This document shows, piece by piece, positions 40,702 to 45,459 of a stretch of 64,000 nucleotides of DNA. The translations under genes and the position numbers were made by a program. Numbering within the stretch: the stretch's first letter is position 1; each line of letters opens with the position of its first letter. Under the pieces are notes generated by a model. The model made no database searches. It saw nothing but the letters and a program-made list of their open reading frames with translations, and was not told the origin of the DNA. This DNA comes from Anaerolineaceae bacterium (lineage in GTDB: Bacteria; Chloroflexota; Anaerolineae; Anaerolineales; Anaerolineaceae): assembly GCA_029265815.1 (NCBI GenBank), contig JAJUGU010000002.1, positions 1 through 64,000 on the forward strand, in the 5' to 3' direction.

Positions 40702-41391
40702 TTATTTCGCTGAAAGCACACTTTCGGCTTTGATTTTCTTAAAATATGGCGTCCATAGGCTGCTAAGGATCAATCCGCTGCCAAACAAAATGAACATGCT
40801 GCCCACGATTGACATTACTGCATGGAAAGCGTCAGCGAAGTTAACGCCGTTCCAGGTGTGGGTAGACGCCATGAAGAACTGAATGGTCAGGCAGAGCACA
40901 CCCACAACGATGGCGGCTGCCCCGCCGCTCTTTTTTCCTTCCTTACGCGGTGCCCGGGTGTAATCTACCCCCTGCCAGATTGCTGGAATACGGAAAATAA
41001 GGAAGACTGCAAGGGTCAATACCGTCATGTAGACCACAGCATCGACGGGCATGGATGACCCACGCAGGCTGCGGGACGTGATGATATGGATGATTCCCAC
41101 CACCACACCAAGGATTAATGCGGTCAATGCTGTTTTATATGAACCAGGCTTTCCTTTTACAAGCATTACGACCGCCCGGATACCCAGCACACCAATAGCA
41201 ATGGTCACGATGACATAGAGGATATACAACCATTGGAAGGGGGCAAGGGGTGCCATTGAATCCCATTTTGTCGGGAACAGTGCCGCGCAGGATGTTCCTG
41301 CTCCACCTAAAATGGTGAACCCTGCAGTAATGGACATCAACAAGATACCCAAAAAACGCAGGAATTTTGATATACCGCTGTCTGGTTTCAT
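40702..41391 (-). CDS. Six-helix membrane protein of unknown function
   Basis: A 229-residue integral membrane protein with about six helices (~10-38, 52-78, 86-107, 116-140, 156-178, 190-215) and a basic loop (RAPRKEGKKSGG) between helices 4 and 5. I do not recognise a family. Possible ligands in or near helices are His in GIIHIITS, HTWNG and DAFHAVMS. It lies 21 bases after haem O synthase in the FNR-controlled operon, so a role in assembly or function of the haem-containing membrane complex is plausible, but this is context only. Confidence 0.7.
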   Translation of the reverse strand: MKPDSGISKFLRFLGILLMSITAGFTILGGAGTSCAALFPTKWDSMAPLAPFQWLYILYVIVTIAIGVLGIRAVVMLVKGKPGSYKTALTALILGVVVGIIHIITSRSLRGSSMPVDAVVYMTVLTLAVFLIFRIPAIWQGVDYTRAPRKEGKKSGGAAAIVVGVLCLTIQFFMASTHTWNGVNFADAFHAVMSIVGSMFILFGSGLILSSLWTPYFKKIKAESVLSAK

Positions 41392-41412: not shown

Positions 41413-42267
41413 TTATAGTGCAAGCAGTATCATTGCTGCAAGCATATACACCGAAGCAAATTTAAACAGACTGAAATTCAACTTTGGTGACGGTCTGACC
41501 ATCATCAGAAATGCCAGGATCATCAGCCCGCCAGAGAGAATACCCAGCAGGTGCAGGATTCCTTCATTTGCACCGATCAAAACTGCAGCAGCTCCAATCA
41601 TTACCGCAGCCAGAATGCTGGAAATGGCAATCGTGACGTGGGTAAAGTGATCACCATAAGTGGAAGGAAATGTAGGAATGGATGCAGCCGAGTAATCATC
41701 GCGGTAACGCAGACTGAAGGTCATGATATGTGTGGGGATCCAGAAGAGAACAGCAAGCGAAAGCATGATTCCAATCCCATCCAGATGCCCCATACCCAGC
41801 GTTCTTCCGGCCAGGATTGGCATTCCCCCGGCGATTCCTCCCCAGATGACCGACCAGCAGGTTTTTCGCTTTAGCAGGATCGTGTAGAGGATCACATCAA
41901 AGAATATTCCCGCAAAGATGACCAGGGCATACAACGGAGAAAGCAAAAATGCGATTCCAACTCCTATTGCCGAGAGAACCAATCCTAACCGCAGGGCTTC
42001 TGCGGGTGATACCCTGCCGTTGGCGATAGGTCGGTGGTGGGTGCGATTCATGACTTGATCGATATCGCGGTCGTACCACATGTTTAAAACTGTGGAACCA
42101 CTGATGGAGAATATCAGGCTGAACACCAACCCTACCATCGTGGACCAGTGGGTGATCGGGCAGCGCGCACTCATATATCCAGCGAGCCCGGTTACAGTGA
42201 GTAGCCCCGTTTGAAGGCTCTTAAAAAGGGGCCAAAAGTTTCTTATCCGATAAAAAATCTTTTTCAA
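41413..42267 (-). CDS. ctaB: Protoheme IX farnesyltransferase (haem O synthase)
   Basis: A 284-residue UbiA-superfamily membrane enzyme that adds a farnesyl group to haem B, giving haem O for haem-copper oxidases. The first Asp-rich site is NMWYDRDIDQVMNRT near residue 65 followed by RPIANGRVSP; the second is YRDDYSAASIPTFP near residue 190. About nine helices; length normal. It follows the SUMF1-like lipoprotein gene by 21 bases. No ctaA (haem A synthase) is visible, so the product is probably haem O itself. Confidence 0.94.
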   Translation of the reverse strand: MKKIFYRIRNFWPLFKSLQTGLLTVTGLAGYMSARCPITHWSTMVGLVFSLIFSISGSTVLNMWYDRDIDQVMNRTHHRPIANGRVSPAEALRLGLVLSAIGVGIAFLLSPLYALVIFAGIFFDVILYTILLKRKTCWSVIWGGIAGGMPILAGRTLGMGHLDGIGIMLSLAVLFWIPTHIMTFSLRYRDDYSAASIPTFPSTYGDHFTHVTIAISSILAAVMIGAAAVLIGANEGILHLLGILSGGLMILAFLMMVRPSPKLNFSLFKFASVYMLAAMILLAL

Positions 42268-42288: not shown

Positions 42289-43182
42289 TTACCGGACACA
42301 GCGGAAGCCCACACCCGGGCTGGTAAACGTTGGTGTCGCGTTGTTTCTGACCCAGACACGAAGGTTGTTTTCGTACACATCCTTGCTTCCTCCGCGCATG
42401 TAGCGGTAGTGTTGAGAATCATAAATATTCGCAGTCCACTGCCAGACATTCCCTGCCATATCGTAGACCCCATACGGACTTGCTGAGTTGATGGTTTCGT
42501 ATCCGTTATAGGTCGAGCCGTTATAAAAACCTACCGGCGTGGTGCGCGATCCGTAACGACTCATATCTTCGAAGGGATCACGACTGGAATAGTAGTTAGC
42601 GTTGTTACGGGCGATTTCATTGCCCCAGGGGTATGGGCGTCCATCGGTGCCACGCGCAGCCTTTTCCCATTCCATTTCGGTCGGTAGACGCCAGCCGTAG
42701 TATTCGCAATATGCTTTTGCTCCGAACCACGAAACCATCGTCATTGGGTGATTTGCCCACTCGTCTTTGGGTGAAAAAGCAGAACCGTCAAAATTTAATT
42801 TCAGATATGGATCGCCCACAGGAATGTAGATGTAGTTACCGGCAGCGATTTCCACTTCATGCCGGGTTCCAGAAAATGGATCACCGGCATAGTAACCTTC
42901 AATCTGCCCGTTGTTCAATATTGCCGAACCATCAGCAAGAGCTGCATTCAAGAATTCAGCGTACTGGGCGTTCGTAACATCGGTCACCATGATCTCATAA
43001 TCATAATCAATGGATACTTGCTCATTGAATTGTCCTTGCAGGAAAGGTCCGGCAGGAATAACTGTCCATGACGATGGATCAATATTGGTTTCGAACACTG
43101 GTGGAGCGGATTGAAAATCCACCTTCTGGCAGGCGGTGAGGACGAAGGTGAGAACCAGCAGTGTGATTAATAAACGTTTCAT
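42289..43182 (-). CDS. SUMF1/FGE-fold lipoprotein without the catalytic cysteines
   Basis: A 297-residue exported lipoprotein (lipobox LTAC near residue 18) with a formylglycine-generating-enzyme (SUMF1) fold: MTMVSWFGAKAYCEYYGWR, LPTEMEWEKAARGTDG, PYPWGNE, YGVYDMAGNVWQWTANIY, YMRGGSKD and VGFRCVR at the end. The two active-site Cys of true FGE, expected after the RGGS motif, are absent (that stretch is KDVYENNLRVWVRN), and no sulfatase is nearby. It is therefore probably a non-catalytic or metal-binding relative, comparable to NirV, the SUMF1-fold protein encoded next to nitrite reductase in denitrifiers. Its ATG overlaps the stop of the 12-TM gene. Confidence 0.85.
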   Translation of the reverse strand: MKRLLITLLVLTFVLTACQKVDFQSAPPVFETNIDPSSWTVIPAGPFLQGQFNEQVSIDYDYEIMVTDVTNAQYAEFLNAALADGSAILNNGQIEGYYAGDPFSGTRHEVEIAAGNYIYIPVGDPYLKLNFDGSAFSPKDEWANHPMTMVSWFGAKAYCEYYGWRLPTEMEWEKAARGTDGRPYPWGNEIARNNANYYSSRDPFEDMSRYGSRTTPVGFYNGSTYNGYETINSASPYGVYDMAGNVWQWTANIYDSQHYRYMRGGSKDVYENNLRVWVRNNATPTFTSPGVGFRCVR

Positions 43183-44663
43183 TTTGCCACCTCGTCTTTC
43201 TTGGTTAATCTCTCTTCAATTTCATTGGCCCAATATCCTTTCTTTTTGAACAGGTCAATCAGCCGCCAGACCATGATCGCCGCGAGTGTCAACAGTAAGA
43301 CCCCAAGGCCGATGTCACCTGCAATGGTGGTGCGGTTGAGGAGGGGCTGTTGTTCAGCTTCGATAACAAACAGGCGGCGCATTTCATAGATTGTGACAGC
43401 CCCGAAGGCCACATCCGAGAAGATGATTACCAGCCAGCCGAACCACTGACGGGCTTTTCCTTTGAGCCCTGCCAGATCAGCATAATATAGAAGCAGGATC
43501 GTAGCCATTAGCGTTCCCAGGATATGCCAGTGGCCGGTCAGGATGGAAAGTTCGTCAATAATTTGCCACTGGCGGAAGATTTCATCCAATTTAACCGCTG
43601 TGAAAATACCAACTCCACTGACGGTGAAGTTCATAAAAACCATTTGCCAGGTAGCACCGAATTTAAGCGGATCGCGTACCAGGGCAGCAATTCTCTGAAA
43701 AAAATTCCCTTTTTTCAATCCCTTTTCAGCCAGGCCGGTGCGTATCAATTTATCCCATGAAAAGATAACCAGAAAAAGCGCGCCAAGCATGGCCAGGGTA
43801 GAACCGCCATAGATGATGAAATGAGCGATCTCTTCGAATGAAACCACCAGCCATGTGCCCATAGAAAGGATGATGGTTCCTGCAGTATAAAGCGGCATGG
43901 CAATCTTGTGCAGATTACCCTTGAAATCCATCCAGCGGCCAATAATCAGGGCTGCAGCGATACAGATCAAAGCCAGCATGATGTGCAGGTGGCCGATCAC
44001 CGAAAGATCGAGCGCCAGTTTATGGGGTTCGCGGACGACATTCTCAGCCAGAAATGCCGTGAACCCATTGCCAAAGTACGAGCCGGGGATCGCGCCAAAA
44101 ATTGCAGAAATGAGCGTGGTCAATGCCATGGCGAAAAACGCGATGCGCTCCATATCGAACCCCTTTTTGGTATGCGCATAGGTCATATCTGTCAACTGAT
44201 ATGCCTTTTGCCAGGGCCAGAGGGCCACCAGAAGCATACAACCTGCAAAGAAGATCAACGACAAACCGGCGATATAGATTCCATGAAACGCCCAGTTGTG
44301 CCCCCAGTATGCAAACGGTAATCCTCCAAAGATAACCATCAGGTACCCGACGGTGATGGTGCTGTTGATGGTCAATCGCTGACCGTCTTTCATCTTCAAT
44401 AAGTCAGTGATCATGTAGACTTCAACAGCGACCACGATCATCGCCAGTGTATGATAAAGGACGATCAAACGGCCTTCACGTTCCGCTGGATCAAGATTCA
44501 TTTTCAAGGCTCTGATCACCACATCCTTGATCCCATAATCAGCCATCGGGCCGGAAAGCATGCCAAACAAAGCTGAAATGAGAGCGGCGAATGCGATACC
44601 CATTAAAATCAAGCCTTTAGTAGAAGAAAAGAGGAATCTAAACCTTTTATATATCCACTGCAT
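43179..44663 (-). CDS. 12-TM putative haem protein, triple 4-TM repeat, haem-copper-oxidase-like
   Basis: A 494-residue membrane protein with twelve predicted helices. Three 4-helix units repeat: helix 1 (GIAFAALISALFGMLSG) resembles helix 5 (FAMALTTLISAIFGAIPG), and helices 2, 6 and 10 carry aligned His: IVLYH71TLAM, SVIGH225LH227IML and ILTGH378WH380ILG. Haem-copper oxidase subunit I has the same threefold 12-helix plan and takes ligands from helices 2, 6, 7 and 10, including an HxH in helix 10. However, the canonical HPEVY of helix 6 and His pair of helix 7 are missing, so it is either a very divergent NO/O2 reductase or a haem-only protein. ATG 44663 has AGGAG 7 bases upstream. First gene of an operon with a SUMF1-like lipoprotein and haem O synthase. 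Confidence 0.75.
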   Translation of the reverse strand: MQWIYKRFRFLFSSTKGLILMGIAFAALISALFGMLSGPMADYGIKDVVIRALKMNLDPAEREGRLIVLYHTLAMIVVAVEVYMITDLLKMKDGQRLTINSTITVGYLMVIFGGLPFAYWGHNWAFHGIYIAGLSLIFFAGCMLLVALWPWQKAYQLTDMTYAHTKKGFDMERIAFFAMALTTLISAIFGAIPGSYFGNGFTAFLAENVVREPHKLALDLSVIGHLHIMLALICIAAALIIGRWMDFKGNLHKIAMPLYTAGTIILSMGTWLVVSFEEIAHFIIYGGSTLAMLGALFLVIFSWDKLIRTGLAEKGLKKGNFFQRIAALVRDPLKFGATWQMVFMNFTVSGVGIFTAVKLDEIFRQWQIIDELSILTGHWHILGTLMATILLLYYADLAGLKGKARQWFGWLVIIFSDVAFGAVTIYEMRRLFVIEAEQQPLLNRTTIAGDIGLGVLLLTLAAIMVWRLIDLFKKKGYWANEIEERLTKKDEVAK

Positions 44664-44690: not shown

Positions 44691-44739
44691 ACCTGATAGC
44701 ATAACAAAAGCGGTTGATTAAGTCATTGACTTTAATCAA
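44691..44739 (-). promoter_or_regulatory. FNR/DNR-type box and class II promoter of the haem-related operon
   Basis: TTGAC-TTTA-ATCAA at 44726-44739 matches the FNR/DNR consensus (TTGAT-N4-ATCAA) in 9 of 10 positions. On the minus strand an extended -10, TG-T-TATGCT, occupies 44706-44698. The box centre (44732.5) lies 41-42 bases upstream of the start predicted from that -10 (about 44691), the class II activator spacing. The box is part of a longer near-palindrome, GTTGATTAAGTC (44713-44724) / GACTTTAATCAAC (44728-44740). Confidence 0.8.
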
Positions 44740-44772: not shown

Positions 44773-45459
44773 TTAGAAATCCATTCGAGCGAGGTTCTGC
44801 AGTCGTTTCAAGTCTTTTATGGTGATTTCCTGACGGGTGCAGGTGATGAGGTTGTCGAGTTTCAGTACTTTCAGTGTACGGCTGACCGCTTCTGGCCCTG
44901 TCACAATACGGGCAGCGATGGTTTTAACCGGGTGCTGTGAACGATCAATCGGCAGCGTTCCACCTTCACTGATGTCGATCAGGTGCTTGGCCAAACGGGA
45001 TTGTACCGTACGGAAAGAAAGGTCATCATAGTGAGAAATGAGAAGCCGGTTGCGTTTGGCAAGGATAGTCAACAGGGCGATGCCAACCTTGGGAATATCA
45101 AGTAAGATTTTCTGAAATTGAGTGTAACTGATATGCCACACAATAATATCAGTGGTCGCAATTGCGCTGATCGGGTTTGGCCCACCATCCAGCACAGCCA
45201 CCTCATTGAACATAATCACTGGCGAGAGTGTGGCTAGAATTGAGATTTGACCTTCGGGACCTTCTATGCAAAGATCCACCTGACCATTGATCAACACAAA
45301 CATGCCTGAGCATGGATCCTCTGCATGAAAAATAAATTGACCGCTGTTGTATCGCTTGGTGTGGCCTGCGTTGATAATGGCAGAGACTGCATCACGGGGA
45401 AGACGATTAAATTGCTTGACTTTATGGAGCATATCAACAAGTTCTTCGCGTTCGATCAT
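44773..45459 (-). CDS. CRP/FNR-family transcriptional regulator
   Basis: A 228-residue regulator: cyclic-nucleotide-binding-like beta-roll (~25-125), dimerisation helix, and HTH_Crp (~150-220). The recognition helix reads GPEAVSRTLKVL, i.e. the E-x-x-S-R pattern used by FNR and DNR to read TTGA half-sites. There is no N-terminal Cys cluster as in FNR, so it does not carry a classical 4Fe-4S sensor; haem- or NO-sensing as in DNR is possible. It directly precedes the operon whose promoter has a matching box, so it is the likely activator. Starts 59 bases from the divergent PLP-enzyme gene. Confidence 0.9.
   Translation of the reverse strand: MIEREELVDMLHKVKQFNRLPRDAVSAIINAGHTKRYNSGQFIFHAEDPCSGMFVLINGQVDLCIEGPEGQISILATLSPVIMFNEVAVLDGGPNPISAIATTDIIVWHISYTQFQKILLDIPKVGIALLTILAKRNRLLISHYDDLSFRTVQSRLAKHLIDISEGGTLPIDRSQHPVKTIAARIVTGPEAVSRTLKVLKLDNLITCTRQEITIKDLKRLQNLARMDF

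Follow-up and report, generated by a model that had tools for sequence, protein, structure and literature searches.

A family of twelve-helix membrane proteins with a predicted haem-copper oxidoreductase fold, encoded with a haem O synthase in an Anaerolineaceae bacterium

We analyzed 64,000 nucleotides of DNA from an Anaerolineaceae bacterium (Chloroflexota; assembly GCA_029265815.1, contig JAJUGU010000002.1, positions 1 to 64,000), hereafter the window, with focus on a minus-strand gene for a membrane protein of twelve predicted helices. This gene was found to be the first of a tightly packed set that continues with genes for a lipoprotein with a formylglycine-generating enzyme (FGE) domain, a haem O synthase and a multi-helix membrane protein; the lipoprotein gene shares 4 bp with it. 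A Crp/Fnr-family regulator is encoded upstream on the same strand, with 109 bases between the two genes, and the promoter of the twelve-helix gene includes the palindrome TTGATTAAAGTCAA (44739-44726). The protein is predicted to have the fold of the haem-copper oxidoreductases, and its seven invariant histidines include residues at the places of haem ligands in oxidases. The features of the locus are as follows.

43179..44663, minus strand: twelve-helix protein with a predicted haem-copper oxidase fold, the subject of this report; 494 amino acids (aa) plus stop, starting with ATG
42289..43182, minus strand: FGE-sulfatase-domain lipoprotein (Pfam match on the orthologue at locus L016)
41413..42267, minus strand: haem O synthase of the CyoE/CtaB type (TIGR01473, 206.4 bits, just below the cut-off of 210.3)
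40702..41391, minus strand: multi-helix membrane protein, function unassigned, with relatives in 36 of 80 loci
44773..45459, minus strand: Crp/Fnr-family regulator with recognition helix GPEAVSR (Pfam match on the L016 orthologue)
44451..44453, minus strand: His71 codon, in helix 2; putative ligand of the low-spin haem, present in 94 of 94 sequences
44283..44285, minus strand: codon of His127 (start of helix 4), an extra invariant His (94 of 94), aligned with His281 in the repeat comparison
43983..43991, minus strand: codons of H225-L-H227 (helix 6), 94 of 94; GHLHIM where the aa3-600 oxidase has GHPEVY
43821..43823, minus strand: codon of His281 (start of helix 8), 94 of 94; a single His where aa3-600 has the helix-7 pair, THHFFTMG
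43524..43532, minus strand: H378-W-H380 codons, in helix 10; putative ligands of the high-spin (H378) and low-spin (H380) haems, 94 of 94; GHWH compared to SHFH(YVL)
44726..44739, minus strand: operator palindrome TTGATTAAAGTCAA; extended form TTGATTAAAGTCAATGAC at 44722-44739
44698..44703, minus strand: -10-like TATGCT, identified by eye, about 32 nt downstream of the palindrome centre, which we take to be class II spacing

The AlphaFold2 model of the twelve-helix protein, based on 79 aligned sequences (from an earlier family set of 83 proteins), had a predicted template modelling score (pTM) of 0.87 and a mean predicted local distance difference test score (pLDDT) of 82, with weak stretches around residues 198-208. 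Twelve long helices were evident (residues 15-37, 59-88, 93-119, 124-147, 171-196, 217-244, 250-271, 277-313, 332-357, 368-398, 402-429 and 439-472), as a preliminary description of this DNA had proposed, and the model has the pseudo-threefold arrangement of the haem-copper fold. When the model was compared to the PDB by Foldseek, the first 26 matches were haem-copper chains (ba3, cbb3, nitric oxide (NO) reductase and others, 3ayf included), with a probability of 1.00 for ranks 1-12 and a best E of 4.7e-3. By VIA-align, the highest similarity was to cbb3 (3mk7 chain D; Z 22.7 over 391 residues, rmsd (root-mean-square deviation) 3.9, 9% identity), followed by the NO reductase 4xyd (Z 20.6) and the ba3 and aa3 types (Z of about 20); a haem-copper enzyme was present, by title, in all 50 entries among the matches listed. 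VIA-align itself cautions that a Z below about 13 can be of little significance when proteins are helical. The operon's other membrane protein (40702..41391; pLDDT 91) served as a fold control and had no haem-copper enzyme among the 50 matches listed, no Foldseek match below E 0.08 and no convincing PDB fold match. Neither CtaA nor transporters were among the well-scored matches listed for the twelve-helix protein.

Sequence searches with the twelve-helix protein revealed only sub-threshold matches in Pfam (best DUF898, E 5.2e-4, 19.7 bits compared to a cut-off of 28), no match in NCBIfam and four matches to PDB sequences that were all at E of about 2, none past the cut-off. The COX1 profile PF00115 did not match the protein at E up to 10. 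Strong resemblance to an unrelated transporter family had been named as evidence that would speak against a haem-copper-oxidase relative, and no transporter family was above cut-off in Pfam or NCBIfam. The proposed kinship with haem-copper oxidases itself was supported by the predicted fold (Foldseek and VIA-align) and not by profile comparison, in which no sequence homology was detected. By the same profile method, a set of four NnrS-like sequences was linked to COX1 (E 8e-6); since weak matches to COX1 and NnrS had led to this set, it serves as a weak positive control. Because the twelve-helix protein lacks a COX1 profile match, the helix-7 His pair and HPEVY, it was not placed in a described haem-copper family and is filed as a separate family with a predicted haem-copper oxidoreductase fold. 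No published description of the family was found in a search that covered few subscription papers and does not prove novelty in print.

Conservation was analyzed in 109 family sequences, reduced to 94 after removal of copies and including that of the window. Seven histidines (71, 127, 225, 227, 281, 378 and 380) were retained in the earlier set of 83 and in all 94, even in two distant members of 41 and 36% identity, as were Met229, Glu371, Arg62, Arg65, Arg173 and Tyr119 among the other positions printed; no alignment column was mostly Cys. The model places H71 in helix 2, H225/H227 in helix 6 and H378/H380 in helix 10, in agreement with the preliminary description. Two further invariant residues, H127 and H281, had been overlooked there; they lie at the N-terminal ends of helices 4 and 8, respectively. 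HPEVY and the helix-7 His pair are absent, as had been noted: helix 6 reads GHLHIM, and H281 is single. If the N-terminus is inside, as the charged inner loops suggest, the seven histidines would sit in the outer parts of helices 2, 4, 6, 8 and 10.

A clear internal repeat had also been reported, and this was examined by comparing residues 8-160, 164-314 and 322-480 as profiles. Units 2 and 3 aligned over 50 columns, with helices 6-7 on 10-11 in register (score 41.1, E 3.9e-6). The best of 168 control comparisons was 27.5 (mean 14.9, standard deviation 3.3); these controls, drawn as overlapping windows from six further membrane families at the loci and run forwards and reversed, are not independent. 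Units 1 and 2 aligned in register over 123 columns, a length of at least 100 columns that was reached in 0 of the 168 controls, but their score of 16.7 falls inside the null; units 1 and 3 gave nothing. As only the unit 2/3 score clears the null, the threefold repeat can be detected only in part from sequence alone. The alignment pairs H225 with H378, H227 with H380, H127 with H281 and H71 with H227; an HxxxM pattern would pair H71 with H225 instead of H227. The partly visible repeat fits the earlier idea of an ancestral form, which we treat as conjecture, as nothing in the analysis dates the family.

The operon was compared among 80 loci kept of 171 candidates, with flanks of up to 8 kb and our own gene calls. 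The family gene was assigned in 77 of these loci; in the other three, a longer overlapping open reading frame had displaced it. Neighbours were the FGE-like lipoprotein (73 loci), the haem O synthase (65), a membrane protein of about 200 residues (55), the Crp/Fnr regulator (43), the window's last membrane protein (36) and another membrane protein (30), all of which are lower bounds because contigs often stop close to the operon. A CxxCH or CxCH tail (both spacings occur) marks a small lipoprotein that was found in 13 of the 80 (L020-L025, L038, L041, L044, L051, L072, L077 and L095) and is possibly a haem c or metal lipoprotein. The FGE domain was detected in an orthologue of the window's lipoprotein (Pfam E 1.9e-36). 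Formylglycine-generating enzymes carry a motif with two catalytic Cys; both places are without Cys in the FGE-like lipoprotein, which is therefore unlikely to be such an enzyme, and may be an outer subunit or assembly factor.

The family was present in 15 of 61 genomes (that of the window and 60 relatives) and in 17 of 400 genomes of the phylum. By the record titles of the 80 loci, which are mostly metagenome-assembled and may include wrong binning, it extends to Aminicenantes, Neomarinimicrobiota, KSB1, Ignavibacteria, Bacteroidetes and others. It is thus patchy, yet spread across many groups. At L181:4371-4940 (G004), the regulator and FGE-like genes run together, the twelve-helix gene is missing and its N-terminal part lies on another contig end, an arrangement that looks like an assembly fault or deletion. 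Upstream of the operon at L184:13977-17566 (G047), and also in L058, a polyferredoxin-like membrane protein is encoded with an FmdE-like lipoprotein (E 1.5e-4 in L184, just under cut-off); this pair is a possible electron entry.

The haem O synthase of the operon had been taken to indicate use of haem O, a suggestion strengthened by its frequency beside the family gene and by its distribution among genomes. Searches detected cytochrome bd and neither COX1 (E 0.001) nor CtaA in the window's genome, so the twelve-helix protein is the likely user of haem O there. Six of the 15 family-positive genomes, estimated to be 80-99% complete, were without COX1 (G000, G004, G008, G020, G049 and G056). CtaA was found in none of these six and CyoE in all of them at a threshold of at least 200 bits, which was our own choice; three pass the curated 210.3. 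CyoE adjoins the family gene in five of the six, and in G004 the assembly places the two on different contigs. By contrast, CyoE at this threshold was detected in only one (G021) of 22 genomes with neither a family nor a COX1 match. Most simply, haem O in the family-positive genomes that lack COX1 serves the twelve-helix protein.

Recognition helices of the adjacent regulators were paired with operators in the same loci, which are related, so that the rows counted are not independent. Exact TTGAY-N4-RTCAA was found in 10 of 13 rows with a Pro-Glu-x-x-Ser/Cys-Arg helix compared to 1 of 22 with Arg-Glu-x-x-Cys-Arg. Exact TTTGC-N6-GCAAA occurred in 9 of the latter 22, and exact TGTGA-N6-TCACA in both rows with Arg-Glu-Ser-Val-Ser-Arg (RESVSR) and in 3 of the 22. 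Ten rows with an unassigned helix, the mis-hits PEEIAR (L020) and REGLAR (L043) and two REVVAR rows were left out, and some intergenic intervals were shortened by our own gene calls. According to an excerpt of PMC1274295, residue 180 is Ser or Pro in the non-CRP-like form of HcpR, whose site is wyTTGACnnnnGTCAArw. Regulons of the HcpR/DNR type share with the operon a Pro-Glu recognition helix with a TTGAY-N4-RTCAA operator, which resembles the HcpR1 sites described there. Since the co-variation of helix and operator agrees with this pairing, the regulator is probably the operon's own and has HcpR/DNR/FNR-like specificity. HcpR of Porphyromonas binds NO at haem, as stated in an excerpt of PMC12750200. 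With up to 2 mismatches, 19 operator sites were found in the window's genome compared to 4 for a control pattern. Among the 13 of these 19 loci inspected (that of the operon included), a full match was seen only at the operon and no convincing NO regulon elsewhere; unlike HcpR/DNR-type regulons, the full match is thus confined to the twelve-helix operon among the sites found.

We propose, at about an even chance, that the twelve-helix protein is subunit I of a membrane haem enzyme of haem-copper fold, in a family of its own, which reduces a gas by use of haem o and most likely converts NO to nitrous oxide (N2O) in defence. The proposal is built on the gene, its conservation, the predicted fold, the operon and the regulator-operator pairing; cofactors, electron donor and substrate would be as follows. 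The oxidase-style places for haem ligands are filled by the invariant His of helix 2 and the HxH of helix 10, so that H71 and H380 may bind a low-spin haem in the same pore as in oxidases and H378 a high-spin haem o made by the operon's CyoE. A His of helix 6 for a non-haem metal is available in the invariant H225 and H227, one of which, together with H281 in loop 7/8, would hold a metal facing the high-spin haem. Electrons would enter from the outer face, perhaps through the FGE-like lipoprotein or, at some loci, the CxxCH/CxCH-tailed lipoprotein, or else from quinol. A small diatomic gas, most likely NO, would be bound and reduced at this site, with the adjacent HcpR-type regulator switching the operon on. 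NO is favoured as substrate because of the HcpR-type control and of three neighbourhoods. In G013, the family gene is 3.6 kb away from a COX2-domain gene and a COX1-family gene that lacks the helix-6 His; a distant member in G247 adjoins a similar COX1-family gene, and a distant member in G070 adjoins a flavodiiron-type gene.

The COX1-family proteins of G013 (L183:10340-11980; PF00115, 218 bits) and G247 (L156:8316-9944) both retain the His pair of helix 7 and the HxH of helix 10 and read LDMVADGN where HPEVY is expected, with the COX2-domain gene adjoining in L183; they are possibly an undescribed NO reductase variant.

Several results weigh against NO reduction on a haem-copper fold. Genes like the NOR-like protein of G013 and G247, COX1 or the flavodiiron gene of G070 were found in 0 of the 80 main flanks. 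No PDB match of the model was below E 0.001 in Foldseek. A profile-profile comparison with COX1 sets, suggested in the preliminary description as a check, revealed no homology with untrimmed or trimmed profiles (best E 0.068, out of register), the family profile being shallow (effective number of sequences, Neff, 2.2). The second His of the helix-7 pair and the Tyr and Glu of HPEVY are missing. COX1 is present in 9 of the 15 family-positive genomes, and G021 (L180:5568-6467) encodes a CyoE of the operon's type and has neither COX1 nor a detected family member. Finally, HcpR-like DNA specificity is common to FNR and DNR and is no proof of NO sensing.

Which His of helix 6 would face the active site depends on the comparison used. 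The shared GH motif points to H225, and the repeat points to H227, as H225 would be the copy of H378, a residue facing its own arc of helices. In both cases, the other His of helix 6 would face the third pore (helices 3-6), where His127 would also lie. To our knowledge, the third pore of haem-copper oxidases holds no cofactor. Since His127/His281, His225/His378 and His227/His380 align, the third-pore His pair would be a repeat copy of the active-site pair. On this basis all three pores could carry a cofactor, with a haem or metal in the third pore held by His127 and by whichever of His225 and His227 points away from the active site, in a near-symmetric, possibly early-branching protein that reduces NO with haem o; we regard this version as unlikely, at perhaps one chance in five.

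Other functions are less probable, first O2 reduction, then binding of NO that is not turned over, then modification of haem. An O2 reductase or oxygen scavenger would have the same fold and haem o, with O2 as the gas. Haem O synthase is a typical partner of oxidases and FNR-like operators also serve the oxygen response, so both the operon's CyoE and its operator type are compatible with this function. Against it, the HPEVY with cross-linking Tyr of A- and B-family O2 reductases is replaced by GHLHIM with an invariant M229, there is no His pair for CuB, and the window's genome already has cytochrome bd. We consider O2 reduction clearly less probable than NO reduction.

NnrS, a polytopic haem protein of the NO response, has been proposed as a sensor or buffer of NO or haem without turnover. 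A similar role, somewhat less probable than O2 reduction, would suit a His-rich protein of twelve helices under a Crp/Fnr regulator; the profile link of the NnrS-like set to the haem-copper family agrees with it, as do genes related to that set near three family loci (L053, L060 and L084), of which the L060 gene has a sub-threshold NnrS match (21.6 bits compared to a cut-off of 28) and the L084 gene none. The twelve-helix protein, however, does not match PF05940 (NnrS) and is not linked by profile to the NnrS-like set (E 0.36), and the HxH motifs of helices 10 and 6 resemble a haem and metal site.

Modification of haem O in the manner of heme A synthase, by use of the CyoE product, is improbable. 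In the four-helix units of CtaA, helices 2 and 4 bear His, and the recurrence of H71/H127 and H225-227/H281 at similar spacing beside CyoE recalls this plan; yet no PF02628 (CtaA/COX15) match and no mostly-Cys column was found, the protein has twelve helices in a haem-copper fold, and in six genomes the family occurs without a detected COX1 that could use haem A. A chance resemblance of a transporter's model to the haem-copper fold would fit the lack of homology by sequence methods and the 8 of 50 Foldseek matches listed that were other membrane or helical proteins of low probability, but is the least probable of all, given a Z well above the look-alike level of helical proteins, haem-copper enzymes throughout the VIA-align entries listed, seven invariant histidines and a haem O synthase partner.

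Proteins with similarity to COX1 were observed at further loci. L154:1489-3651 (G090) and G099:C25:27274-28671 encode proteins roughly 720-750 aa long, in each of which stretches between positions 269 and 413 of the COX1 profile are matched three separate times, as if a COX1 helix module were repeated. L141 and L142 (G072) encode weakly COX1/NnrS-like proteins (PF00115, 37.4 bits for L142) near genes that appear by eye to be Crp/Fnr-like; the NnrS-like set linked to COX1 above contains proteins of this type.

The main idea of the preliminary description holds as far as predicted fold, supply of the cofactor and the plan of histidines are concerned. Haem-copper enzymes form the base of respiration and NO reduction, and their origin is disputed. 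With this predicted fold, another set of histidines and a threefold repeat still visible in part, the family is a candidate outgroup and gives a direct test of how the haem-copper active site arose. Use of haem O by the twelve-helix protein would explain why a haem O synthase is kept in genomes without detected COX1, and the family, if it reduces NO, could be an overlooked NO sink and N2O source.

Among known systems, NnrS is likewise polytopic, and the NnrS-like set is related to the haem-copper family by profile; the twelve-helix protein is set apart by the lack of a PF05940 match and of a profile link to that set. With cNOR, qNOR and eNOR it shares the predicted fold (4xyd and 3ayf above). 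cNOR and qNOR have a Glu in helix 6 near FeB; this position is M229 in the family, and GHLHIM includes neither Glu nor Gln. In an excerpt of PMC8756737, eNOR is a COX1-family protein with Gln at the Tyr position, unlike the twelve-helix protein, which has no COX1 match. Motifs were paired with those of the aa3-600 oxidase by helix order and by eye, with no statistic: YHTLAM and THGTIM in helix 2, GHLHIM and GHPEVY in helix 6, AHFIIYGG and THHFFTMG in loop 7/8, GHWHIL and SHFHYV in helix 10, and MRRLF and MPRRIY after helix 11, the first of each pair from the twelve-helix protein. From cbb3 CcoN and the other PF00115 subunits I, the protein differs by the absence of a profile match, by one His in place of the helix-7 pair, by HxHxM in place of HPEVY, by the extra invariant His127 and by an internal repeat partly visible in sequence. 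It resembles them in its predicted fold, twelve helices, His in helices 2 and 6, HxH in helix 10 and a basic pair after helix 11.

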